NCBI GenBank assembly: GCA_012845835.1
Contig: JABAKD010000016.1
Span: forward strand, 12,165,007-12,229,006
From: Undaria pinnatifida
Lineage: Eukaryota > Sar > Phaeophyceae > Laminariales > Alariaceae
Length of the DNA: 64,000 bases
Direction of reading: 5' to 3'
Every line of letters starts with the position of its first letter. The first letter of the stretch is position 1. This document shows, one piece after another, positions 1 to 42,400 of the stretch. The notes below the pieces were generated by a model that was not told the DNA's origin, made no database searches, and worked only from the letters and a program-made list of their open reading frames with translations. The position numbers and the translations under genes were made by a program.

Positions 1-297
1 TAAATGTATGTAACACACTTCGACAAAATATTCGATCTCACAGCTGGAGTGTATCTTAATTTTTAAAATATATAGACTATAATACACGATAGCTTTTTTT
101 TTAGAGCCATCCTACGCTAAGGGTGCAGCATAACTTTCTAAGAATTTTTTGGGCTCTCGTAACACAAGGAGCTCAGCATTTCGCCCGAAAGGTTACTTCA
201 AGGGCGTTCGTTCGCGCGATACCGGTGGTTCCTCACTTGAGCGGTGGTGAAAAAAAAAAATGCGATTTAGCCAAAATAAGGTATACTGCCATGTTCG

Positions 298-592
298 ACG
301 CGTGCTACGATAGAGGTGCACCACTTTTTTTCCTGAGGTTTTCCTCAATTTGGGAGCTTAAGACCTCTCCCCCCCAAAAAAAAAATGGAGAAAAACGACA
401 CAAAACTGGTTTCTTCATCCCGGATGAAAAAAATCCCCGAGGGCCTAGGTGTTACACACAACGAGAATCTCGCGGCAACAAAAGAAAATGGTTTATATTT
501 TTTCCGATGATGTTGTGTTAAGGAGCCTCGTCATTCAGAAAAAACTTTCGCCAAAAAAAGGTATACCTTAATACCTCTATTGTAGCACCGTG
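298..592 (-). mobile_element. Family A inverted-repeat element, copy A1
   Basis: Bounded by acgcgtgctacgatagaggt and its near reverse complement cctctattgtagcac. The interior holds the family landmarks in reverse order (cctaggt, acaacgagaat, ttttccgatgatg, ttaaggagcctcgtcattcag). No ORF spans it. It resembles a MITE. Confidence 0.65.
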
Positions 593-1634
593 TCGTTGGG
601 GGCCCACTAGTAAGTACGATACGAACAGATAACAGATAACTAACCCTGACAACAATAAGTAATGGTATTATTGCCTCTGTCTGGGAGCCTAGCAACGCAT
701 TTTATATGATCTAGGATGCGAAGACATGGTACAACGGGGTTTCACTTGCCTTTGGAGGCGTGTGCATGCATGTAGGAATAAGGGGGTGGTGATATTGCGC
801 CATTCGTGCATGGAAACTTTTCAGTTATGTCAGCGGCTGGTTGCATTATTACAAGGAGGTTCAGCGAGACGAGTGAGTGGCCAACGTGGAACCTGCCTAT
901 TAATAGTGCCTACCAATAGTAGTGTACTTTCCCCGTGTCGAACTTGAAAAATAGTCTTCCCGGTATCCCCAGGAAATGAATCCGCTTCGATCTTGACACG
1001 TCCGCCCGTATATATATCCAGCCGACCTGTTATCCCGCCGTTTCAGGGGGAGATAGTGTTATAAGGCTTAGTTTTGCAAGTGTGTGTGGCTGTGAGTCGG
1101 CACGACTTATTCGCCAAAACTACTGTAGATAGTAGTCGGGCTAATAGTCATATCCTGAAGGTGCCGACTATCCGACTTATTGGGTGTCCAGCACTTGCAG
1201 CAAGGATTATTGAACGTGGGCCGGGGCGCGGGACTAATACCCCACACTAGTTTCTTAACATTGGTCAGACAATCCCCGACAGTCGGAACTGCGCGGGCTT
1301 GTAGCTGAGACTGGCACACAACCTCACTCTCAGCAACCAACCAAGGAATTTTCTTCAAACACAAACAAAACACTATCGTCACGAAAAAAAGGTGTGCTAA
1401 GCTTTTTGAAAAAAAAACAACCTTCTGCTGCTTCAAAAATTATGTTCACCCGCGCACACGAGATGGACCACGCGGCAGAGCACTAAACGTGCTATTATTA
1501 CTTCACGTTGTTGTGCAGATCTAGAAAAAAGAAGGTAAAAACTCGCAGTATCGGACGAGCGACGCTTCAGCACAACAAGCCCACCCTCGACCGCCTGTGG
1601 GAAGTTTCCAAGAGAAGTTTGTAGGAAGCAAGGC

Positions 1635-2065: not shown

Positions 2066-2195
2066 AGTAGAGAACAGAAGAAGCGTTATGATCTCCACAG
2101 AGCCCCGGATAGCAACTGAGAACCGAGGCGCATGCCTCGGTTTCATTTCCTGACTACCCGGGGCCGGGCGAACAGATATAACGCCAATCTATCTG

Positions 2196-2487
2196 ACGCG
2201 TGCGCTACGATATATGGGTAGGTGTAGCACTTTCCGCCTGAAATGTTTTCTGAATATGACGGGGCTTCTTAACGCCAAATCGTCCGAAATAGGCCATTTT
2301 TTTTGCATGATTCTTCTCGTAGTGTACTTGGACCCAGATGGGATTTTTCATCCGGGATCATCTAGCAGTTTTGGATTTTTCATCCGGGATCAAATCAGTT
2401 TTTGGGTTAAGAAGGACATGTTCTTATAACCTCCCAATTTGATAGGAGAACCTCAGAAAAAAAGTGCTGCACCTCTATTATCATACG
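2196..2487 (+). mobile_element. Family A copy A3
   Basis: Nearly full length: acgcgtgcgctacgata at the left and cacctctattatcatacg at the right, with tgacggggcttcttaacgcc, aaatcgtccgaaa and atttttcatccggga inside. Confidence 0.6.
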
Positions 2488-2826
2488 AAAACGGCCAATT
2501 ACTACCCATCAAATCAGACATGTCTTAGCCTCGAGCCATCCCACGGTAAGGGTTGCAGTTGTTGGATTTGTAACTAATATTATATACGAGCCATCCCACG
2601 GTGTAGGGGGTGCAGCATCAGTCCCATCACTCCTCTCCTCACATGAGGGACTCAATATCTCACCCGATACTACATGACTTCCCGAAGGCATTCGTTCGCA
2701 CAACCCGACTAAGCGCTTCTCCATGCCTTGTAATCCTAAAAAAATATATACTCGTCAAATAATTACTCACACTAATGACTAACCGGGGGGCAGTTCCTCA
2801 CGTGAAGAACTCAATCGCGGACATAC

Positions 2827-7854: not shown

Positions 7855-8586
7855 GCCTTGTTGGTTTCGATAGGGGTTTTATAAACTTTTCTCGGAAATG
7901 GCGGGGCATCTTAACGCCTTCATAACTGGAAACCTGTTTTTTTGGGGGGGGGACAAATTGCTTGGAATTAGTATAGAGGGGTTTTGCGGCTCTTGAGGGG
8001 TTTTACAAACTTTTCGGAAATGGCGGGGCACCTTAACGCCTTTACAGCTGGAAACCCGTTTTGGGGGAAAAATTACTTGGATTTAGTATAGAGAGAGGTT
8101 TTGCGGCTCCAAAGGGGTTATAAACTTTCTGTAAATGGCGGGGCACCCTGACGCATTTACAGCGGGAAACCCGTTTTTGGGGACAAATCACTTGGATCTA
8201 GTATAGAGAGGTGTTGCGGCTCTAAAGGAAGGGGCTATAAACTTTCTTGAAATGGTGGGGTACCTTAACGCCTTTACAGCTGGAAACCCGTTTTTTTTTG
8301 GGACAAATTACTTGGAACTTAGTATAGAGAGGGGTTTTGCGGCTCTACACGGGTTAGCTTAACCCCAAATAGCCCATTTTTTATTCTTTGTTTTGCACGA
8401 TCACTTTGATTTGTTTTTTGGATGCATGCCTAGGCCACTAGGCCACCAACGGGTTTCACTTTCATTTCTATTTTTTTTTTGAAAAATCAGTGTTTCGGGT
8501 GAGATATACCAACCATTGTTTTACCGAGCCACCACCCTCAGAAGGCAAAAACTATGGTTGGTGCACCTCTTGATGGTAGCATGTGA
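7855..8586 (+). mobile_element. Family A copy A5 carrying an amplified B insert
   Basis: A left part with aaatggcggggcatcttaacg and a right part with accccaaatagccca, tttgcacgat and gcacctcttgatggtagc belong to family A. Between them is a four-unit tandem array (separate entry) that contains family B. Confidence 0.5.
7860..8345 (+). repeat. Four tandem units of about 117 bp spanning an A/B junction
   Basis: The landmark ggcggggc (or gtggggt) recurs at about 7900, 8022, 8138 and 8255. Each unit contains a piece of family A (aaacttt..gaaatggcggggcaccttaac) followed by family B (gcctttacagctggaaacccg to gcggctctaaaggggtt). Confidence 0.8.
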
Positions 8587-9194: not shown

Positions 9195-9525
9195 ACGCGT
9201 GCTACGACAGAGGCAAATAACTTTTCGTCAGATTCTCTGAATGACGGGAGCTCCTTCACCCAAAATGGTGGGAATAGCCCATTATTTTTGCATCATTCTC
9301 GTCCTATACCTAGGCCGTGGGATGTTTCGTCCGGTCAGCAGTTTTGTTTCTCCTCAAATCGGTTTTGGGAGAGGTCTTAACCCCTTCAAAGCCCCCAAGC
9401 CCCTCCTTATACTAATTCCAAGTGACTTTGTCCCCCAAAAGGGGTTCCGGCTGTAAAGGTCTCAAGTTCCCAAATTGAGGGGTAATATTAGAAAAAAAGG
9501 GGATGACCTCTATCGTAGCACGCGT
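9195..9525 (+). mobile_element. Family A copy A6, both ends intact, with B insert
   Basis: Terminal repeats acgcgtgctacgacagagg and cctctatcgtagcacgcgt are almost perfect complements. A family B copy interrupts the right half at a TTAA. Confidence 0.7.
9377..9466 (-). mobile_element. Family B element inside A6
   Basis: It begins TTAAccccttcaaagccccc and contains ccaagtgactttgtccccc and ccggctgtaaaggt. The right TTAA has changed to CAAG, while A6 sequence (ttcccaaattgagg) resumes directly after it. Confidence 0.6.
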
Positions 9526-13245: not shown

Positions 13246-13914
13246 CCATTTCTGGGAGGAACGGTTGGTGGAGTCATAGGAGACATACTACTGCTTTACG
13301 CAAGGGTGTTCGCTCTACATCGGAACGGCATCTGCGCCACATTATCAGGGAGTAAAAAAAAAAAAAAAAAATGGCGTTACCGGAGGGGGGGGGGGTTAAC
13401 TCCTTCTCTATTGGAAACCCTTTTTTGGGACAAAAAAAACACTTCAAGGCAGTACAGGGAGGGGGTTCGGGGCTCTAAAGGGGTTTTTACGTCCCCGTCA
13501 TAAGTTTGCGTGCTACCGCAGATTGGAGTGCGAGCCTACCCATAATACAGCAAATTTGAGAAATTGTGAACACACCGCACCCAAGAACCGCTACCGAAAA
13601 AAACGCGCGGTAGGGGATGGACCGTCGTCATCCCCTTGCGAGAAAACATTGAAAAACGAGGAATTTCCAACATGTACAGATGGATGCCTTTCTCTTTAGG
13701 AGCTCTTGTCAGACCTTCGATAATCGAATTTTTCCCGAGCAGCTCGAATGTATGTGAGAACCGTTCGCGGACCGGGACCGTTACCGGTACCACCCCCCCC
13801 TGTGAATAACTCCCGGTTGGATAGCGTGACACAACACAACAAACGGGATCTCACGGACGACGCCCATCAAGACAACGCACACGGCAGCACCACTTAGATA
13901 ATTATACTAACGTT

Positions 13915-14097: not shown

Positions 14098-14864
14098 CAA
14101 CGGCTGTACAGGCGAAAAGTCGACTGAACTACCGGCGTGAAACGCAGGGCTGGATCTGTCCGCGCTGGGGCCAGCTACGACGGAGCTGGAGAATGGGCAT
14201 TGCCTCGACGGAGCCGGAGAATGGGCATTGCCTCAGGGAACCTGCCGTTTCGGATCCCCCCCCAGTTGTAATTTTGTCATCATGGAGCGCTCTCACTCCA
14301 CCAAAACCGACGAAACATGAACAGTGAACATCGGCGCCCTGGATACTTAACATATCATAGACACAATCCTCAACACTTCCCCTCGCTGGGGCCGTATCCG
14401 GAGCCGTAGGACATTAACTCTTTAACACAGAAATGCACCTTTTATCAGACACTAATCCCATGTAGCTTGTCCCCAAAAACGTGGGTTCAGTTCTAAAGGG
14501 GTTTCTATAATGCGTATAGTACTGGAAAAAATATCCCAACACTTGCTTCCATGTAGTTCGTCCCCAAAAACGTCGATAGAGTTTTGTACGAGTTAGCGGG
14601 ATGTTTCTGGCGGGGACCGCGCTGCTTGTTGTAGGCGATGTGTTTGAGAAGTGCGAGACATTGTTATGGTGGGGCAGGTGAATAACACGGCGCTGACGGT
14701 GGGGACGGCCGCGAAAAAGCTGTCCACCGCGACGTGGTAGAACTGCGAGACAGCGATAGGTTTGGGCGGGGTGAACGGGACGGAGTCAACAGGAGGAACG
14801 CCGCCGAAGCTGTTCGCTCGGGACGTTGTTGGCGGGGGTCGCGCTGGATATGGGTGACGTGCGC

Positions 14865-14995: not shown

Positions 14996-15899
14996 CAGCT
15001 TCGCAGGCATGCCTTAGCCAACTTCGACATACCCACCCCGAACAAAGGCATCGTTGTGTTGTACCGTGCTTAACCCGCTCTATCCATAACAGCGCGGAAA
15101 GCGGTCAACGGCTTCGCGGGCGCCGCCCCTGTCAACTCATCCTCATCCATTCCGCCCAAAAGTATCGCTGTCGCGCATCCCAGTCCACCCATGCCACCCG
15201 TACCCAGCACGGTCCCCACAAGCACCATCCCGTCGCGGTCGCTAGGTTCCACACATCGGACAAATCAGATCAGATCTCCATTAACCATTGATGATCTGTG
15301 TCTCTCGCCGTAGATAAATCCCTTGTCAGTATGATCTGCAAGGCTTACAGGTCATGTTGCCGTGTTTTGACCCGGAATATCTGAACGATCTAGCATACGT
15401 TTTTTGGGATTTGTACAACACAAATCCTGCACAGCACAGCATACCATAACGGCAGATGTACTATGACCTAGATAATCTAGATCGTGATCTGTTAGATGTA
15501 TGCTTAGCTTCGCGGGCGTTCCTCTGCCCTGTCATTCACTCGCCCCGCCGAAAGGCTGTTTTCGCCCACGTCATCCATAACCCCGCCAGAAACGTTCCGT
15601 CAAGGCCCTAAACTTCGGGTAGATGCCCCCAGCAGAGCAGGCGTGACGGCCCCAGCGTGGGCAGCAAGCGTGATCCCACTCTGTTTCCTAGTAGTCAGTC
15701 CCCAAAAAGGTTGCTTCAGTTCTAAAGGAGGCTAAGCGATTGGCTTATGACAGTGAGCATCCTTTTCACCTGTCTTCACTCTTCATGTGCTTTGGCGGAG
15801 CGAGCGCTCTAACACCACAAAAAATGGGGGGGGGGGTGATGCGAATGCCAGCTTTCCTGACCCACAATGCCAACCCATATGTACGAAGTCATTTCGTAA

Positions 15900-27499: not shown

Positions 27500-30400
27500 C
27501 TGGGGCGGGAGGAGGACGTGGTCGGGGGGAGGGGCCGGGGCGGTGGGGGTGGGGGCACGTGGCGGAGACGGGGGGGGGGTAGTCATTGTCATGCATGGCC
27601 ATAGTCTGCCAGGCAATAGACCCTCGCTTCCCTACAATGTCAGGACAGAACACGTCGGGTTTTCACCGACCAGGCAGGCGGGAGGAGCGGGGGCGGGGGC
27701 ACGCGGCAGAGGCGGGGCGGGCGGGGGGGGGGGGGGGGGGGGGGACGGGGGCGAAGATGGAAAGGGAGCGGGCGCCACCAACGAAACGGAAAATGAGCTT
27801 AACCTTGACGTTTTGTTTTGTCGTATGCCACTGCTGTGTAGATTCATGTCGTTTTTCGAGCCATGCCGCCGTATGGGGGAGGGGGGGTCCCACTTGACCC
27901 AAACCGGTTCCCGGGCTCCTCATCTGGGGACGTAGCCACCATCGATGGAATCCCATATGATTTCTACAAAGCTATTCGTTGTACAAGGTTCTCCTTCGGG
28001 GTGTGGTTGGCTTGAAATTGCGGGGGTGTCGCACGTTGAAAAGGGGGGCATAACCCTTGAAAAAACTAAAAGGAAAAACAACTAGCCGCACACCGCAAGC
28101 AACCCGGCAAGTAACACCGACCAGCCCAAACGAGTTTACACTGCTGCAGTTTGCCTACAAGGCTCCCCTTTGGGATGCGGACGTGGTTGGCTTGAAGTAC
28201 CGGGGGGGTGTCGCAAGTTGAAAGAGGGGGGAAAACGCTCTTGAAAACCAATTATTGACCCGAAATTCGTCGAACTCACGGCTGACGTCCGTGAAATATT
28301 TTTTATATAGTAGTACAGGAACATAGTTAAAAAAAAACACTCTTGAAAAAGACTCGAGAAGAACAATTGGCCACTGAGTCAACGCACATGTTACGATAGA
28401 GGAAGCAAGGTATACCATATTTTGGTCGAAAATATTTCTGAATGATAAACCTCCCTTAACCCAAATAATCGGAGCTTTCATTTTTTTCAGCTGCAATATG
28501 TTTCGTTTAATTGTATGCCTATTAATAGGCCGTCGGATTAATCAGCGGGTAGGACTTTTTTTTTGTTTTCTCAAATCAGGTTCGGGCAATAAGGTGCGGT
28601 TTGTACGCCTAGGCCGTCGGATTAATCAGCGGGTAGGACTTTTTTTTTTGTTTTCGCCAAATCAGGTTCGGGCAATAAGGTACGGTTTGTAGTCTATACC
28701 TATTAATAGGACGTCGGATTAATCAGCGGGTAGGACTTCTTTTTTTGTTTTCTCCAAACCAGGCTCGGGCATTGAGGTACGGAGAAGCTCCTCCAGAGAG
28801 AAGTCCCAGAAACAAAATAGTGTACATCTAACATAGCATGCGTCTTAGCCACCACCCAAGTCACCCGGCAAGTAACACCTGACCAGCCCAAACGAATATA
28901 TGGCTTTTAGTATAATATACATACCCAGGCGACGCATGCGCCGGAAGAGTACACCAATATTTCCCGAGATTCATCGTTTGGGGAGCTCTACACCTTCTTA
29001 ACGCCTTTTTCCAACTGGAAACCTTTTCTTGGGAACAACACTACTTGAAATTTAGTGTAGGTCGGGATTTTGGGGGCTCTAAAGGGCTTAACCCCAAAAA
29101 CCGATCTGGAGAAAAAATCAAAACATCACCCCCGATGAACAATCCCATGGCTTAGCTGGGAACACAACGAAACATGTTGCCAAAAAAGAAGAAAAAAAAA
29201 GATTTTTTTTTAACGATTTTGGGTTATGGAGCCCTGTCATTCAGAAAAAAAAATCAACCCGAAAAAACGCTACCTCTATCGAAGTGCACGTCAGAATTTA
29301 TTGTCTCAAAGTTAGCTATAATTTTGGGGGGTATGGAACTCACCAAGCTTATCAAATGAAGGGCCAAAAACAAAAAAGAGGTGCACTCTCACCTTAGCTT
29401 GCGTCAGCTCTGCCGCCTCCCTCCCTCCCTCCCTCCCTCCCTACCGCCCCCCCCCCCCCAAAAAAAAACGAAAAAAAAAAAGTCTGGAGTCGCCACTCAC
29501 GTCTACGCCTATCACACTAAGAGCCGCCTATTGGGAGGGGCCAACCGCTGCCTCCACCGCACGGCACACAAGGAACACAGAACACGAGCAACGCGCGCTG
29601 CGATAGAGCTGCTACGTAAGGTATACCGTTTTTTGGCGAACATATTTTTCTGAACGATGGGGGGGCCTCCTCAGCCCAAAACCGTCGGGATGTACCACTG
29701 CTGTAGTTCTCGTTTCGCGGTAAAAAAAAATAGGTATATACCTAGGCCATGGGATTGATTTTTTATCGAGTTGCACTTTCACAGCGTGTACGACTCAAAA
29801 ACAGTGTTCGGGCGAGGTATACAGCTCCACTCACCAGGTTAACATGTTGAGAGCCTCAGAAAACAATGGTTGGTTGCACCTTCACCGTACTCGTACGTAG
29901 TTTTTTTTTTTCTTTCTTCAATCCTCTGGCGGATGAGGAAAAATAAAGCAAGTAAAAGTTCGCCACACTTCCACGTGTCGTCATGCATGCTGTGTGTCAA
30001 CTTAACTTAATTACAGCATGCAAAAAGTTGGGTATTAACCATTCAATTGGTTGGTTTCACAGCGGACGGTTTTTGTAAGAACTTTTGCTACTTCTAGTAA
30101 TAGTTTAAACGGCGCCAAAAATAGTGTCTCGTTTATTTACTTTAATCATCGAAGCGGGATCATAAATATATATATATGTATATATATATGCCAGCCGCCG
30201 ACCGGAGAGACGCGCGCAAAAAACTTGACAGTTGTAAATATCCTTTCTGCTGCGCAAGAGTTCCTGTGAACAGCGACGGCAATACTATCGGGGAAAAGCA
30301 ACCAAACGAAAATGTAGTCTCTACTCACCGATTAGTTGAACGCCTACCGGGAGGCCAGCGCTGTCCTGACCGCACGGCACACTTAAAGCCGGTAGTCCTG

Positions 30401-33400
30401 TCAAGGATGCGGGTGCCGTGAAGACGTCGTCGGCATACGCGTCCACGCCTTTTTCGGCAAAGTCTCCAAGCCTAACGCCGGCCGCGGAAGGAGAGGCAAC
30501 GGGCAAGAATTGGCCCTTATGTATTGCAATTAGGCACACCCAAAATGTTGTCGGAAAACTGTGTACATAGCTTGAGCACACGAAGCACACCTATGTCGTC
30601 TTGTCCCAAGAATTGTGGTTTGTTCGCACGAGGCGTGCCGAAATTGTTGTTGGGAAAGCTGTTTAGTTTGTAGACGTGTTACCCTGTTGCCCATTACCCG
30701 GGTACTGACGAGTATTACCCGGCCTGCCAATACCCGTCACAGGTACGAGTAGCACTTCACACCCGCCGGCTTCGGGCCCCACGTAGCCAGGTACCTAGGT
30801 ACCCAATACCCTGGAAACCCCGGGGATGGCCAATTTACCATCCCCCAAAATCATGCCCTCCGGGCAGCATTTCGCACGCAATCTCCAGGAAACCTATCCC
30901 AGGCGCGAGGCTTACGTCGTCGGCACGATGGGACAGACGAGGACGTCCACCCTGTGCGTCCGCTTGTAGTAGTAGTACTGTTGTCGAGGTTTGAATATGC
31001 GAGTACTGGGCTCTACTAAAGCGCTTGCAGGCTCTTGACACTGCGAGTTTAGAGGCATACCAGGGGCCTACCAGGTATTCAGTATTCTCGACTCGACTCG
31101 GTGATACCGTGAGTGCTGCGAACGAAATAGTATTCTGGTCCTGCCCCCGTACACTGGCCGTACCCCCAGTACCAAGTACTGCTATACTTCGAAGTATTAT
31201 AATAGGCATGTTCGTCATCCGTCAATGTGCAGCATCAACTTCACCGTCGACCACTCATAACGAGCAAAAGGATGAGGGAGCGAAAGCGACCGAGGCCGTC
31301 TTTTGCCTTGCACGGCGAAAAAGTAGGGCTGAGTCGGCTGGAGTTCCCACCTAGGTTTTAGTTGGCTGGCGAAGCCAACCAACAAATCGACTAAAGAAAA
31401 AGCCTTCCCCCCGGTCTAGGGGGGGGCGGAGGAGGTACCCCCGGAGGGCCCACCGCCAGAGGCAAAAAAAATACGCAAGATGGCATAATTTGACACCAGA
31501 AAAATACGATAAATCGGTCAAGTTTATCACTGGGTTTGGTCACGAAACAGGTACCTTTTACAAGTTGTCTCAGTTTATCAGACCTTATAGAGATGCACCA
31601 GAGAGTATGGACATGTCGTTCCCGTTTGGGGGTCTTTCACCGGTGTTTCGTTGTGCCGTGTAACGGTCAATACTCGTGCCGCACTCGGTAGCACTCCACC
31701 AGTAAAACAACACACAAAAATAACACACCTGGTCGGAATAGACTGGGGGCTCGTCCACGGCAGGAGCATAGATAATAGATTACTCATCGTCGGCGACTCA
31801 AGAACGATGAGCTAGCAAATACCATGTCATACCCTCCGTGGTATTGGGTGTGTTGCCGACTAATACAAAAAAAACAATCTGTGCTCTACGAGGTGTCATT
31901 TCCGAGCCTTACGGTCTTCGCTGAATAGACACGCAGCTCAGGGCGAGCATCGCTCAAACACCCGAGCCAGAGGTGCTCATCACCCACTGGACACTGAACA
32001 TACGAACGAGAGACATGCTTGTAACAGAACTAACGACAGCAGACCTCCCTGTGTGCTCGCAGCGTGGTAGTACTCCTTGAAGACGACGGGAAATGCGTAC
32101 CCCGTACCAAAAAAGCCTTCTTACAAGCAAGGAAACCCAAACGCGAAAAAAATCGGATAGTTGGTACCGCCGCAATAACACCTCGCAACAAACTATAATA
32201 CCTAGCCAACTAAGCCAAATAATAACTAGATGGCGACTTTTAGTCAGCCAACCCGCGGCCTTGAAAAAAAGGCTTTTTATGGCGGAGTACGTACAGGTTT
32301 TCAATGCGAGAGATGCACGGGGCCGATTTCCGCAAACCCGGCGTCCACGCGGAGCTGCTCGTTTCATTGCACGCCGTCTCGACTCGCCCGCGCGGTTGGT
32401 TACCGCGCTGGTGCACTTTTGGGGGACTTGGACCGCTGGTGTGATGCATTTTTCATGCGGCCGGATTTTCGTCGATTTCTTTCTTCTTCGAACTTACACG
32501 GCCTACGGCACGCACGAGGCACTCTTGCCCCATTTACCATTCTAGTAGAAATGAGGCAAGGTCGAGCCGTTTTTTCGCCTTGGAAGGCAAGAAGGCGTCT
32601 TCACGGCGGGATGTTCCCAATGAACGCGCGCTAGGATAGAGGGGCGCCATTTTTTTTTTCCAATACTACCCCTCAATTTGGGAGGTTAAGACATGCCCGT
32701 CTTGACCCAAAAGCTGATTGAGAGAAAAGTAAAACTGCTACTAAGTCGTTCTACGGTAGTAGCCCCCCAACATTTCCTTCAACGAAATCGCCGGGTTTTT
32801 GAAACCAGCTCCCGTCCGTATCTCCCGAAATACGGTGCTCATTGTCACCCCGACGTCATCGTTCGATAGTCCTTTGCAAACAATAAAGTATTTGAAAGAC
32901 ATGGTTCTTACGGCATTCTTCCTCGTGTCGAGCAGCCACAAAAACGTTCGTTAAACAAAAAGAAAATCGATGTTTTTTTTTGTTCGTTTTTTTTTTTGGG
33001 GGGGGTGGGAGGGGGGGGTCTATCGTAGAATCAGTGTACTAGATGAAAAAAACCCCATGGGCTAGGTACGCACAACGAGAATCACGCGATAAAAAATGGC
33101 CTTCGTATTATTTATTTATTTTCCGACGATAGTATTAGTAGGTTAAGGAGCCCCGTCATTCAGAAAACACTTTCGCCAAAAAAAGGTATACCTCTATCGT
33201 AACACGCATTTTTTTTTTTTTCGTCAGTCTGTCTGTTGGTCTGTCCGTGTCTGTCTGCCTGTTTGTCTGTCGGCGGCTAGATCACCGATTCCGAGAGCTG
33301 TACGTGGCCAACTTCGACAAAAACTCGGGGTCTACAAACGGGGACGAGTATACGCCAACTGTGTGAGACTTGTTTCGTTGCACGCCGTCCGTAGCCGGCC

Positions 33401-36400
33401 GCGGTCGTCGGGCTGTTGTGGTTTTGGGGGCCTTGGACTACTGTGTTTTAGGTGCGGCGAGATATTTTTCTTTTGAATGTATCGTATCCTGCGAGGGAGA
33501 CCCGGAGCCCAGCGGCGACACAGTCAGGGGACTAAGCCAGCGAGCTACAATCCCCGACGGAGGATTCACGCCTTCGGATCCCCGCCAGGCACACGGTTTC
33601 CTTTGGGTGCACTTGAGGTACGTACCGCGAGGTACGAGTAGCGAGTAGGGGGAGCTTTTTGACAGCAGAACAACCCTGCCGGTAATTATCCCGCATGATG
33701 AAACCTCCCACAGGGTTTTTGGAGAAATCAGCACACATCCAAGCATTTCCGATCTCCGCTTCTAGCGATACACTGCACTGCCGCAGACCCACCCAGGAGG
33801 GATGTTGAGGCATGCGCGCTAGCACCGTCGAGTCCAATGGCGAGGCGGGTGGGCACCCTCCGCGTTGTACACTGGGCACGTCGGACACATGAAGTCTTCG
33901 TCTTCCTGATCGTCTCCAAGGAAGACGGATTTTTTTTCAATTTTTTTCATCTTATTCATATTAGGGACATTCTATAGCTATTAATATGTACAGCCCCAGG
34001 AAGAGGAGGGATGTCGTGCTGCTATTGCTGTGTTCCTTTTTTCTTTCTATTTCAGTACGAGAAACCCTCGCGCAACATTACTATACTTCGAAGATACAGT
34101 ATGTATATACCACACGCTAGACCAAGACCACGATACCCCCCCCGCCCCCCCCCCCCCCTTTTTTTTTTGGCATACTTCTACTGTTCAGCTTCTCGACAAG
34201 CCGTGGTCACAGGTGTCGTCCCTTCCCCCTCCCCGGTTCTTGCCTTTAAGTTTTATCGCGCACAGGGTTTAGCAATCCCAACCTTCTCGTCGTTTTCTCA
34301 TCGGGTATTCGCTACCGGGTTTCCACCAATCGCACAAGCAACTCTGTACCTCGCAGACAATACCACTCTAGGCGTTCCTTTCTTGGCGCAGCGTAGTAGG
34401 CCACCATTCCATTGCGGGTTCATATCGCAAAAAACTTAAAATAGCACGAAAGCTTACGACCACAAGTAAAGAGAGAGAGGAGAGAGGTCACCCGCGCGAG
34501 CAACCAACCCACAGACTCTGCAAAAACAACAACAACAACAAAAAACTGATCCCGCTACCCCAGCCTTGGCCATTCCTGCTGTACCTGTTGCATTGGGATG
34601 ACGGGTGCTACGATAGAGGTATACCTTTTTTTGGCGAAGGTGTTTTCTGAATGACGGGGCTCCTTAACCTACTATTGCTATCGTCGGAAAATAAATAAAT
34701 AATGGGCCAATATTTTTTGCATGATTCTCGTTGTGTACCTAGGTCATCGGGTTTCCATCGGGATGCGCTTTCCGTTTTCTGATAATCGTTTTTTTGGGCG
34801 GAGTGCAGCGCCCCTCCTGTGAGGAATCTTCGAAAAAGAAAGGGTGCGCCTCTACCGCGGCGCGCGTTGAATGCACCCGGCCAACTGCAAGTACAAGGCA
34901 CTCTTGCCTCGTTTACCTCTGTACTATTAACAGCAAACATTCCCGCCATGTAGAAGAACGACAAGGGAAACCCCTACGTGCGAACTCTTACCTCCCTTCT
35001 GTACCCACTTCCGGCTTAGTATCTTTCTTAATAATGAGGCGAGGAATAGGGAACGAAGCCGCCTAGGCCGTTTTCTTCCTTGCAAGGCACAAAAAAAAAA
35101 GCGGCGTGCGTACAGGTACAGACTTCCACTACTCAGCTAATCTGTCTGTCTGTCTGTCTGTCGGTAGTATAGCGTCTGTCTGGTAGCAAATGCCATTGCA
35201 TCTTCGATTGTGAGAGCTGTACGAGGCCGGTTTCCGCAAACCCGCCGTCCAGGAAAGAAGACGAGCTTGAGCTACCTCGTGGTTGTGGTTTCGTTCCATG
35301 CCGTTTTAAGGTGGTCGCGGTCGCCCTGCTGCTGTGTATGGTTTTGAGAAGCTTGGGCTGGAGCGATTGCTTCTTCGCGGCGTTTTTTTGTGTTCCTTTC
35401 CTTCGAACGCACAAGGCCTACTGCATGAACGAGGTGCTCTTGCTTCATTTACCACCCAATCCACTAGGAAGTATATTGTTGCGACCTACGCTGCGCAATC
35501 CGAGCGCGTGAGGCATACCTGTACGCCGTCGTCGGTGCGGTGGGACAAACGAGGATGTCCACCTCTTCCAACACCGACGAAAAGTCGCGGGAAAGTCCCT
35601 GGCGAACCCCCTGCGCCCGCTTGTAGTACTTGTCTGAGTAACCCGCCGATAAGGAGAAGGTTCCAATAATTATCCTCTTTCGCACCTGGAATAGAGATAT
35701 ATGGGATCAACCGGGGTCGACTTTACTTCATACGAAAAGTATAACATCCGCCGCCGACGTATGATCAACTGACTTGACTTTTTTTCTTTTTTAAAATCAG
35801 GATGTGATTTGTTCGGGATTATAACGTGATCGGGGAACTGATCAGATCGGGTTTCGGTCTTCATGAGGGTTGGTGAGATGCGCAAAGACGACGAGAACTG
35901 CGGCTGAGTCCATCCACGGACAGCCGGAACGCGACTTAACCAACAATTTTTATCAACATTTTTCATGTCTCGAACGGAAGCAGGTCTTTGTCACCGCCAC
36001 GCCGTACAACTCGAGAACGAACCGCATGGACAACCCCAATCCTTAATCGCGGGGAGCATACCGCTATTGCTTCAAAAAGGCAGCTGAAGCGACGCGCGAG
36101 TCCGACAGCAGCGGCTCGGCTTGCCGCAGGGCAAGGCAAAAGCAACATCACCATGGTGACACCACCTGGGCAACGTATAGGAATACCATACAAACCTCCG
36201 CCCCGAAGCCGTCATGCCGACTTTTCAGCATTGCTTCCTTGGAGGACGCGGCGTCTGGATTCCGGTGTCTGCCGAGAAATACGCACAGCGCAAAAAAAAA
36301 CAAAAAACGCCACGGGTCGGTTAACGATCAGCGGTCAACGGTCAGCAGTCAACGGTCAACGGCTAGCAGTCAACGGTTAGCTGTCAATGGTCAGCCGTTA

Positions 36401-39400
36401 ACGGACTTAAGTCAAAGGTCAACAAATGGCAGTCAACAGTCAATGGTCAGCGTTCAGCATTTTTTTTTTTTCCCGTTTCCGTGATCGTTCTTGTTTTCGT
36501 GTTTGTCCCTGTTTTCCTTTTCTTTTTCGTCCAACTTGTGTATATGCGAAGTATATACACTAATCTTGTCTTCTGCGTTTTTTTTTAATACGCGTTTTGT
36601 CCTCACCCGTAGCGTATCCCGTCAAACCTGGCCAGGTTGGCCGAGGCCTCCGAGAGAGCGTTCACGTAGTACGCCGCGCACTGCTGGGGAAGGGACGGGA
36701 GCGACACCTCCGTCACCTCCGCTCCCAGGGCCGACATCGTCTGCGCAAGGACAACCCACAAAAAACCGCGGTCAGATAAGCACACCAACACAGAAACGCA
36801 CCTTGAGGGGCCCACGAACCCAGAAAAGCAGACCAAGGCCATTTCACGCAAGGGGGGATGTTAAGGAAAGCACACCAAGGCACCACTAAGGGGGGATGCC
36901 TTTTCCTCATTTTTGTTCCGAGCACCATGACAAACCGTTCGATCGCGGCGTCGTATTTCGCGAAACAATACACAACCAAACAACAGCTGAATGCCAACCT
37001 TAACATGGTACCGTAGAGGCGCACCTAATATTCGGCGAAGACGACGAGCTCCAACCACTCACCCAGAACCCGACTCTGACAGGCATTGTTCACTCGACAC
37101 CCATGTGCAATCGAACAAAGCCTATGGATAGGCTTTGTTCTTACAACGATTAAAATCGGAAGCACAAGCAATGTTCCGAAGGCACTGGGATTCTTTTTTC
37201 AATGAAGAATCCCACCGCGCCGCCGTACAGAAACCATTTCGCCCAAAAAAGTGCTCATAGTACAGTGGGTACCCCGATTTAAGAGCTCCGAGGATAAAAG
37301 CATTCGGGTACTAACGCCTGTACAACTGGAAACCTGTTTGGCGGGGAAATTACTTGGAACTAGAATAGCGGGGTTGGGGCTCTAAAGGGGTTAAACGAGC
37401 GGTCAAATAGGAGTGCCCGCCTATGCTAAAAGCTATATATTGTCTACTACAGATGCAAGCAATGTAAAGTTATGAGCGCTTGTTTCGGCTTGTCACGGGG
37501 TGCTCTAAACCGGGGTGCCCACTGCTGCGGCCCTGCCGTATAGCACGCATCGGACTGACTTTGGAGTGGGACCAGGTCCGGACCAAAGCTGCGGCACGAT
37601 ATGCTATGATGATGTCATGATGGTGTTATGATGATGTTATGATGATGTTATGATGATGTTGTGATGATATTATGATGATGTTATGATGATGTTATGATGA
37701 TGCTACAATTATAATGTTATGATGACGTTATGATGATGTTATGACGATGTTATGATGATGCTACAATGATAATGTTATGATGATGTTATGATGATGTTAT
37801 GATGATGTTATGACGGTGTTATGATGATGTTATGATGATGTTATGATCATGTTATGACGACGATGTTATGATGATGTTATGCTGGTGTTATGATGATGTT
37901 ATGACGATGTTATGACGATGTTATGATGATGTTATGATGATGTTATGATGATGGTATGATGATGGTATGATGATGTTATGACGGTGTTATGATGATGTTA
38001 TGATGATGTTATGACGACGATGTTATGATGATGTTACGGTCGTGTTATGATGATGTTATGATGATGTTATGCGATGTTATGACGATGTTATGATGATGTT
38101 ATGATGATGTTATGACGATCTTATGACGATCTTATGATGATGTTATGATGATGTTATGACGACGATGTTATGATACACCCCAATTATCACCACCGTGCTT
38201 GAGCCACTCGGACGGGTGACTCTGTACCTCACCGATAAAAAAGACTTTCGGCGATTTTACTTTTGGTGCAGCGCAGCTTAACCTTCCGTCGCGGATTCAT
38301 TTCGCAAAACAAAACAAAACCAAAAACGAAAAAGAAAAATTCAAGGCCGTCAAGGAACAGGGGGGTCACTTGCGCGAGTGATTGATCCCGACACACTGCA
38401 AAAAAAAGGCCTCAAACGTGACCGCCTCCTACCGCAGCTTTGGTCTCCGCGTGGGATCAGTGTGACAACAAGCGCAAGGACAGCGACAACGAAACACGAC
38501 GGCTCAAAACGCCTCCATGCAGTCGTGGTCCCTCATTAGTGCGGTGCCGTGCCAGACGACAATGACCGCACTAAAGTGGGACCCCGAACTATCCCTCAAT
38601 AGTGAGGTACTCTATGACAAGCGATACAGACCGCACTAAACTGGCACCCCGCACTATATAGGGTACCGCACGAACGCGGCACCACGACTGTATTCGCACT
38701 GTGACCTACAAAAGTATTTACGGATTTCCACGGCTCCTCACATCTACAGCCTTCGTGACGGCCGCCGCCACGTCTGGCTGCACCCTCTGCGCCAGAGCCT
38801 CGCGGATGACCCCCACCTGTGAGCAAAGCGGCACGAGGAAAAACGTGGGAGTCGAGCCACCGCTCGGTGCTTCGGAGGTCGATGCAAAAACGTGCGATGA
38901 CCAAAGCAAGCGATAATCCAATAAAAGAGCTTTAGACAATCCAAGCAAGGGCTGTAGCCAAAGCTGCTGTGGCAATCGACGTAAAAGTGGCAGTCAAATC
39001 AAAGCGCCTGCGACTGACTGCACGCCTTCAAGTCGCCGGCTTGATAGTACTGTCTGATCAAGCGGAAAACTCCACAAAAAACATGGGACCACCACATAGT
39101 CTAATATATAGGCGTTCCGATGACATATCAGGCCGCCGTCGGCGCGCTCGCCCAATAAAAAGGTTTGTTGGTTGGTCCACGCACACGCAAGCGCTCACCT
39201 TTAACCCCGAAAGGGGGCGTGAGCTCCCAGACGCCGCAGCCTGCGGGGACAAAAACAACAACCAGAGGGACACGGTAGACACAAAGACGATCAGAAGGCG
39301 GCTATATTTCGGCGCCTGCGCCATCTTGTTTTGTACAGCAGCAATACCATAGCCCCCACCCGGGAAAACCATGCCGTGGACATCATGCATCATGTTATGA

Positions 39401-42400
39401 ATATCATGTCATAAACATCATGCTATGAGCAATAAGTCCTGCTGTTCGACTCCGGCAGGCTGGGGTGTTGACCACGGGAGCTCTGCCGAGCACAAAAATA
39501 ACCGCACCGGCGTTCACCCCTCGGCAGAAAAACCGTCGCTTTGCGGTGCAAAACCCGTTTCCGTCCCCGGTGCACGTCAAAACTCGGTCCATAGGCAAGC
39601 TTGTGCCCGTCGGAAACTGCTTTGTGGGCACAGGCGACGGGGGGTTGATCTCGCTACACGACACGACACCACAGCATAGCACAGCACAGCACACCAGACC
39701 AGACCACATCGCATCATACAACGCGACACCAACCACACATCACACAACCACACGAAACCACACCGAACACCACACCGCGCGACCATAAGACAGTATAGCC
39801 GTCGCTAAGAGCTCGCGCAGCAGGGCATTCATTTGTACAACCTGTGTACGTTAGCTGATTTTAATAATTGGAGAATCGTCATGAATCTCGTTCCACGGTC
39901 GTAGAACCTCGGTCGCAGATTCGGCCTCAGCCGGCTCGAAAGGGGTCGTTACTTGTGTAAGCCGTGTAGATTACAGAGCTCATTTGAGTTGGCTGGACTT
40001 GTTTACTAGTATTAATAGTTATCGATTGGGTGTCGGAGTAAAAGCCAACTATTGGTATTAACAAGTTGATTCCAGTCAATCGGATGCGAACACGAAGAAA
40101 TCTGCAATTTACCGCACGCAACAAAGTGTAATGTATTACCTGTAGTATAATAAAAATGTAATACCTATTCTACTAACAACTAGTCGGTGATTGAGTACTA
40201 GCATAAATTACTATGAGTATAGTGAGCCAACTCACAGCACTATTAATAGTTATTGTACAACTGCAATACCTAGCCAACTAACAACTAGCCGGTGATTTAC
40301 TATTAGCACAACGTACTACTAGCATAGTCTAGTGAGCCAACTCACAGTCCTATTCATAGTAGCCACTCTGTACCGAAATATAGTTCACATTTGGACTCCT
40401 GGCGGCATAACTCCTGCTGTGGGAGGATTTTTTTTGAACGTTTTTTTTTGCTGCGCAGAACCTTTGGTACTTGGTACTTATTATGTTTGTGCTGTATGTT
40501 CTGTAGCGCTGTGCCAGGCAGATAGTACCGGCCCTCTACCATGAAACCGGGATACTGGCAACTAATAATGCGACTACAATAACTGCAGTACCTTGCCAAC
40601 CAATGACTGATCGGCGGCTTCACAATAGTAAAGTAACTCACCATTAGTAAATTGAGCCATATTAGTGTGGCAACTTGCTAACAGTACCGCAAGTAACTAT
40701 TAGCATAGTGAGCCAACAAAGTCCTATGGACGGTTAATATGCTCTTTACGCACTGTATGCTCTATATGTGCTGTATCCTCTGTATGCGCTGTATCATACA
40801 GTAGTACAATAGTACAATAACTGTAATATAATACCTAGCCAATTAACAATCAGTCGGCGACTTACTATTAGTATAGTCAGCCAACACCGCCCTCGTAAAC
40901 TAGTAGAACTCGTATTCTTCGCACGTATTATAACAACAAACACTGACCTCCGCGAGCATGGCCGTGTAGTCCGGTACCGGCTGCTGGAGGGCTGTGGAAT
41001 CGCCCGCTTTGTCCTCTCCCGCCACGGCCCCCAAAAGCGCAGCAACGTCGGCTACCGAAGAGGCGATGGGACCCACGCAGTCCGTAGAAGACGCGTACGC
41101 GATCAGCCCCTTTCGGCTCAGCCTAGTGGGTTTCCACAAGCGTGCGCGCGTTCCGGTAAAGGGGAATGGGTGATGAGGGGGGGGGGGGGAGGGAGGAAGA
41201 GGGGGCGGGGGGGGAGGGGGGAGGAGGGGGGGGGAGTAGGTAGGTTTAATGCCCAAGGCAGGTTGATCGCGGCCGGAATGCCTGCATCGAAACCGGAGTA
41301 GAAACCTGACGATGAGGGCGAGGAAAGCCAGAAGAGCTTGTTGGGACCAACACCCCGGGCGCACGACGGCTGACTTCTTCGATCTACATCCCTCCAACAA
41401 AATCGGTTGGCCACTCCAGCTGCACAAAAATTCGGTGGAAAAAACAACGCAAGACAGGGCGAGCGAGCACCCGACCCCCACTAAAAGCCAACCGGTCTGC
41501 TGCATGCCAAAGCACAAAACAAAACGCACAAAAGAGAGCACCTATGCCCTAATAAATCAGCAGTAACACCGTTCTACGGCCTCGGTAGCACCTTTTTCGG
41601 CCAAACAGTTTCGGTTGGTCTGCCGGGGCGGCGGGTGCTCATCGACCAAGGGATTACCGCATATATATCGTGGGAACAACCATTTGCGATTTACCTGGTA
41701 AGTGACTCCTCCTTGTGCACCTATGCATAGGCAATGGCCTTTGCCCTGTCACCTTTCTCAAAGGGCAGCTTTTGCGCGAGGTACAGAACTCCTCCAAAGC
41801 GAGGAATCGACGCGGGTGCTACGACAAAGGTATACCCCTTTTTGGCGAAAATATTTTCCGAAAGAAACGACGGGGATTCTTAACCCCTTTAGAGCCCCAA
41901 GACCCCCCCCTCCCTGTACAAATTCCCAGTAGTTTGTCCCCAGACACGGGTTTCTAGTTGTGAAGGCGTTAACCCCCCCCCCAAAAAAAGTCGTCGGAAT
42001 GTCGCTCTTGTTTTGCAGCAACAGGATTCATTTTATATTCGAGTACCTAGTACTTGCAGGTAATCTGGGTTTGGTCCACGGGCACTTTCAGTTTACTCGA
42101 AATAAGCTTTTGCCTCCGAGAGCGCTATGATAGGGCATTAATACAAGTGACGAGGAGTAATAAGAAAAAAAAGGAAGGTGCAACTCTACCATAGTATTAC
42201 CATACTATTAGATTACCCGCCTCTCCGCCACCAGAATCTACGGAGACTACACGACCACTTTTACTACAACAAGGCACAATATCCAACACCTCTGGAACGG
42301 CTACCGTTTATACAAATCTTCACGAGACGATATTTATACGCAACGGTAGAAAGTGTACCTGCGACCCATAGTACTATTAGTACTCTTAGTAGCATGTGTC

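Follow-up and report, generated by a model that had tools for sequence, protein, structure and literature searches.

The closest described counterparts of the element reported here are the CMITEs of Acropora corals, miniature elements of about 100 bp that carry TTAA duplications, have ends reading CCCTTT or CCCC, and occur in tandem arrays, at paired empty and filled sites and, in the case of CMITE-IN, inserted into a second small element at its TTAA (excerpts of PMC2872659). The same excerpts quote the piggyBac end motif as CC[C/T]T, give CCCC also for CMITE III and, at its right end, CMITE IV, and describe terminal inverted repeats (TIRs) that coral family I has in common with an isolated piggyBac element, AmiPB1. 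Also similar by description are the non-autonomous Pokey MITEs (mPok) of Daphnia, which belong to a piggyBac-superfamily transposon (excerpts of PMC4912750 and PMC3849761), and the non-autonomous T2-MITE/Kolobok elements of Xenopus, which likewise target TTAA but whose ends start AGGRR or RR (excerpts of PMC6004289). For the brown alga Ectocarpus, four DNA/PiggyBac families with 1588 copies are listed, and the miniature inverted-repeat elements named in the excerpts at hand are Tc1/mariner, with no TTAA element like ours among them (PMC12477816).

The element, here called B, was found in a window of 64,000 nucleotides of Undaria pinnatifida (the whole stretch of DNA analysed) and was followed in the window's own genome (511 Mb; 511,146,479 bases in 68 contigs). 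It matches the CMITEs by description in size, TTAA duplication, kind of end sequence, arrays and nesting (excerpts of PMC2872659), and is therefore an element of a known kind. B is somewhat shorter than the coral elements (96-108 bp, same excerpts), which bears on the minimum length of DNA that such a transposase needs, and, unlike coral family I with AmiPB1, it has no partner that we could find. At about 89 bp, present in many copies, with inverted ends and too short to encode a transposase, B has the features of a MITE. Our data support the view that it works like a piggyBac MITE and that it is a real and well-supported case of that kind.

A TTAA-bounded insertion in repeat A and other copies in the window

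Positions 41880-41972 hold a 93-bp insert with TTAA at each terminus inside a copy of repeat A, as the first-pass annotation had described. Repeat A is about 300 bp long with inverted ends (ACGCGTGCTACGATAGAGG...), and nine copies were aligned. The A arm (...GACGGGGATTC) lies to the left of the insert and A resumes on its right (...CCCAAAAAAAGTCGTCGG), where a C-run is longer than in other A copies. The insertion point, site L, has the context ...GACGGGGCTCC-TTAA-CCCAAAATCGTCGG... in A. The interrupted and empty copies are as follows:

41880..41972, plus strand: B copy of 93 bp with its two TTAAs counted, inserted at A site L in the orientation of A (locus L001)
41808..42199, plus strand: A copy split by B, with nhmmer profile matches at 41808-41887 and 41969-42199; a member of the A profile's training set
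268..595, minus strand: A copy with sites L and R2 unoccupied
2195..2520, plus strand: A copy with sites L and R1 unoccupied
34601..34886, plus strand: A copy, empty at site L
33036..33207, minus strand: left part of A, empty at site L
28389..28587, plus strand: left part of A, empty at site L

Uninterrupted A copies had been said to hold a single TTAA at this place, and five of the nine empty copies in the window do so (at ~569 minus, 2195, 28407, 33205 minus and 34602); the other four read TTGA, TTCA, TCAG or ATAA (1636, 9196, 29610 and 29091 minus). TTAA occurs at 0.26% of positions in the window. The further claim, that removing B with one TTAA restores A, stood for the left arm together with TTAACC: with the flanks joined via one TTAA, the local alignment to the best empty A copy scored 59 (shuffle maximum 36) and spans this part only; the right arm was recovered solely by comparison with a profile that has the 41880 copy itself as a training row. 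Cleaner restorations from outside the training set are seen at L044, where A is matched over profile positions 5-311 (E 1e-50), and at L081 in comparison with L062. The 41880 copy entered an A element that was already resident. As had been proposed, this B insertion is younger than A by its nesting, and in the window B is less diverged than A (mean pairwise identity 0.735 over six B loci versus 0.607 over nine A copies, the latter figure including poorly aligned arms).

A profile search of the window found nine near-full B copies together with four fragments that match more weakly. Both TTAAs are exact in two of the nine (41880 and 29091 minus) and at least one is exact in eight. The copies other than that at 41880 are:

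7911..8362, minus strand: four B units in a tandem array of ~115-bp period in A site L, reversed relative to the 41880 copy
9377..9465, plus strand: B copy at A site R2, right end TCAA; host A ~9196-9524, empty counterpart 268-595
28998..29091, minus strand: B copy at A site R1, both TTAA exact; host A 28902-29291, empty counterpart at 2195
37311..37394, minus strand: B copy in repeat D, outside A, right end TTAG; join score 108 against L060, given without a shuffle baseline
13396..13485, minus strand: B copy with an exact TTAA on the right and AAAA on the left

Joined flanks restored A at site R2 (9377-9465 against the copy at 268-595, score 89; shuffle maximum 29) and at site R1 (28998-29091 against the copy at 2195, score 50; shuffle maximum 29). 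For the array (units 7911-8002, 8033-8120, 8151-8228 and 8265-8356), which reaches through the TTAA of its host A copy, the joined flanks scored 41 through TTAA against the empty copy at 2195 (shuffle maximum 31) and matched A profile positions 48-310 (E 5e-8), while the single flanks scored 30 on the left (shuffle maximum 27) and 28 on the right (maximum 31, not beaten). Pieces resembling the left arm of A separate the units and, since one follows each B unit, three of the left ends in the array look like duplication junctions rather than insertion ends. The junctions in 7889-8362 carry AGGGGTT-like letters common to the arm of A and the end of B, suggesting slippage or unequal exchange. Nesting in A was also considered for the copy at 13396-13485 and is not claimed, the join test giving no support (score 27, shuffle maximum 29). 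Diverged half-copies at 14420-14507, 14510-14600, 15650-15732 and 43180-43270 match the middle part of B, with no clear match to its ends, and are possibly a related sub-family.

No transposase was matched by Pfam in ten open reading frames of the window and 139 stop-to-stop frames (105 aa or longer and containing 14 or more kinds of residue); the same runs returned only Amidase, WD40 and a weak Transgly_assoc match. The Amidase match (PF01425) lies in an exon-like frame at 40903-41541 on the minus strand. Rfam and tRNA scans gave no match, and each of three patterns, two for B and one for A, had 0 matches in scans of viral contigs, near records possibly lying outside the scanned set.

Ends, empty sites and recent copies of B across the genome

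The first-pass annotation had proposed counting the B copies flanked by TTAA, and had regarded the reading as lost if most lacked it. Over the part of the genome covered by three pooled sets, exact TTAA stands on both sides of 57 of the 89 near-full copies examined and on at least one side of 83. The first set, chosen by similarity to the 41880 copy, comprises 58 copies at 39 loci outside the window (38 with both TTAAs, 53 with at least one); it derives from the 40 that were scored of 1658 first-look candidates, which together gave 47 matches, and covers L002-L008 and L016-L047 (L009-L015 repeat L002-L008 and were counted once), matches that start after profile position 8 or end before 86 being left out. 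The second, chosen by similarity to the intact copy L028, comprises 20 copies (17 with both, all 20 with at least one), the exceptions being a right end TCAA in two and a left end ATAA in L082 (a one-base match offset allowed for); these are 20 of the best 40 matches, from 40 scored of 1896 first-look candidates, leaving out the row C33, the loci L003, L016, L028 and L047, which already belong to the first set, and others lower in the list. As the queries themselves contain TTAA, both sets are biased toward intact ends. The third set was drawn from 163,604 bases not chosen for B, namely the window, six arbitrarily placed stretches and four chosen for transposase, and its 11 near-full copies have TTAA on both sides in two and on at least one in 10. 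B therefore carries the 4-bp TTAA target site duplication of piggyBac elements.

Between these duplications the element reads TTAA-CCCCTTTA...TAAAGGGG-TTAA, with many copies finishing in GGCG instead. The youngest copies measure 81 bp between the TTAAs and 89 bp with them. In an intact copy the terminal inverted repeat pairs at 10 of 12 positions, the first eight of them without mismatch, and only 5 of 100,000 shuffles reach 10; the L016/L028 sub-family owes this value to its right end AAAGGGG-TTAA. An earlier figure of 4/12 came from a consensus misaligned at the left end and was replaced by a consensus of 89 bp and an intact copy. B starts CCCCT (CGCCT at many right ends), one C more than the CC[C/T]T motif.

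Two copies on different contigs, L016 and L028, agree at all 89 bp and have no similarity between their 300-base flanks, and the best 40 matches to L028 are 96-100% identical, most of them across all 89 bases and on many contigs, which indicates that B moved recently. L026, L044 and L047 differ from this pair by one or two positions; L026, at site L, has the same aligned letters and is sited elsewhere, its copy being one base longer. Mean identity is 94.5% among the 12 copies with the AAAGGGG end and 81.9% among the other 43.

Single-TTAA empty sites of A, the other feature to look for, were found several times, in the window and at other loci. B fills four TTAAs, three in A and one in D, each with an empty counterpart holding one TTAA in the window or elsewhere, and two of the four (site L and the D site) are filled in both orientations. 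Site L carries B forward at 41880, L063, L065, L081 and L082 and reversed at 7911-8362 and L076; L069 and L080 carry B in opposite orientations at one TTAA of D. Joined via one TTAA, L081 (site L) is unbroken at the junction against an empty A copy in L062, L066 (site R2) is unbroken against the A copy at 268-595, and L080 (repeat D) is unbroken against L008, where the TTAA is kept; L060 reads CTAA at the same position of D. At L067 a young B lies within an older B, as judged from the flanks. TTAA duplication, single-TTAA empty sites, insertion in two orientations, near-identical scattered copies and short inverted ends are thus all observed for B.

These sites bear on two other readings of the same pattern. 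B might be an ancestral internal part of A, the empty copies being deletions of B, and it is indeed unusually frequent in A, mostly at site L and in one orientation. Its presence at three different positions of A, in both orientations at one of them, its occurrence outside A (in repeat D, in another B copy at L067 and between many unrelated flanks) and the identity of copies at unrelated sites make this explanation hard to credit. Equally improbable is a Tc1/mariner-like element with a 2-bp TA target whose sites read TTAA by chance. TA does lie within TTAA, and the ACCCC.../ACGCC... ends are also inverted about TA; such an element would duplicate TA free of any wider constraint, whereas each of the three A sites, like the D site, has an empty counterpart with TTAA, both sides are TTAA in 17 of 20 young copies, and just 5.1% of the TA in the window falls in TTAA.

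Candidate transposases and a proposed mechanism of movement

Our preferred reading, which we hold with high confidence, is that B is a non-autonomous MITE inserted by cut-and-paste into TTAA with duplication of the TTAA, using a transposase supplied in trans that is likely of piggyBac type. B duplicates its TTAA targets as piggyBac elements do; a transposase acting in trans, most likely piggyBac-type, would recognize the CCCCTTTA...TAAAGGGG ends, excise B and join it to a new TTAA, and excision would probably leave a clean TTAA behind. The suggestion that B may be a tiny non-autonomous piggyBac-like MITE is accordingly retained from the first-pass annotation, on the strength of the TTAA duplication and the single-TTAA empty sites; as to the enzyme, a member of the piggyBac superfamily is what we infer.

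The genome offers a putative source of such an enzyme. The search for a partner was by Pfam family, and PF13843 (DDE_Tnp_1_7, the piggyBac transposase family) exceeded the curated cut-off at five places (best E 1.5e-9) and in 0 of 14 control genomes; its count in the genome is low, with five hits from eight candidates. These putative piggyBac-type transposases are known as sequence pieces that lie in separate frames. DNYFTS or DNYLTS is present at three of four transposase loci, NNYFTS at one and GVDxxDQ at two, and we take the DNYFTS-like and GVDxxDQ pieces to belong to the catalytic region. A sequence search of the PDB with one piece recovered piggyBat weakly (E 0.22), ranked under two unrelated chains.

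An autonomous piggyBac transposon with the ends of B, for which the first-pass annotation had proposed a search, was not recovered: the four loci hold transposase pieces with no B-like ends adjoining. In these four stretches of about 9.9 kb each we detected no TTAA-anchored inverted pair (9/14 matches) around the gene, no match to the B profile and no B-type end at up to three mismatches. As none of the four has B-like ends, assignment of a transposase to B is by inference. A 190-bp repeat near three of the loci was considered as a transposon end and rejected, being a common repeat in other loci. At L053, TTAACCCTTTTGAGAC adjoins a transposase piece (L053:7048, minus strand), which makes the TTAACCCTTTTGAGAC-end family a lead as the transposon end of the L053 transposase; a profile of this family with L053 left out matches that locus no better than E 0.05. 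A TTAA-bounded family with TTAACCCTTTTGRGAC-like ends directly adjoins B at its right TTAA in L006, L025, L031 and L036, the four loci that are training rows of the TTAACCCTTTTGAGAC-end profile, and at L023 such a family adjoins the TTAA of B by end motif alone. L053:4997-6795 is a 1.8-kb palindrome (99.2%) with two inverted transposase pieces, either real or an assembly artefact.

Sola3 elements target TTAA. The statement that a perfect TTAA duplication is the hallmark of piggyBac holds for B in that the duplication is there, and fails as an exclusive mark, Kolobok having the same target (excerpts of PMC6004289). Movement of B, as a TTAA-targeting MITE, by a transposase from outside piggyBac, such as that of Kolobok or Sola3, would account for the duplication and for the lack of a piggyBac element with the ends of B in the four transposase loci. 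Kolobok ends, which start RR beside the TTAA (excerpts of PMC6004289), differ from those of B, which start CC or CG; in addition, the genome has a piggyBac-type transposase (PF13843), and CCCTTT or CCCC ends are described for coral piggyBac MITEs of about this size (excerpts of PMC2872659). We therefore regard a non-piggyBac mover as unlikely and a piggyBac-type transposase as the probable agent.

A possible preference for A, or spread of an A+B composite

Among the young copies of B, 7 of 20 lie in A, compared with 6.6% expected from the share of TTAAs that A holds (14 of 211, in 99,604 bases of ten stretches outside the window; binomial P 2e-4), A matches having been called at E limits that differ (1e-3 and 1e-2). 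In the stretches outside the window that were not chosen for B, A is the host of both B copies (site R2 in L059, site L in L060). Tentatively, the TTAAs of A, of D and of the flanks of B may be preferred, mostly in one orientation, so that A+B is assembled recurrently and B seeds arrays whose units share single TTAAs.

The same excess would arise if most B copies in A descend from one A+B composite spread by A's own movement rather than from repeated insertion of B, a reading that we also consider possible but doubtful. At site L about 19 copies are forward and 2-3 reverse, several judged by one flank; identity among the L-site copies is slightly above that of random sets (0.864 versus 0.836, permutation P 0.07), and for 6 of 15 the nearest neighbour is another L-site copy (3.9 expected). 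Set against this, L-site copies are unclustered on the B tree (11 changes versus 11.9 shuffled, in a tree with no well-supported branch and low power), young L-site copies occur in both orientations, and L026 at site L is identical in aligned letters to L016/L028, which sit elsewhere. Array units were dropped beforehand, 10 for the tree and 11 for the identity tests. It is possible that a sub-family of A with B spreads as a single unit.

Arrays are also seen outside the window. L041 (G000:C38:15520126-15521532) holds seven head-to-tail B units, mostly with an 85-bp period, in which neighbours share a single TTAA, and dimers like these units occur at L004/L011, L032 and L045. At L059:1327-1971 an A copy has its internal part (profile positions ~48-155) in about six or seven tandem repeats.

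B offers a clean and countable record of TTAA transposition in this alga, its near-identical copies suggest that it was active recently, and, with one TTAA of A used repeatedly, target preference can be tested by counting.
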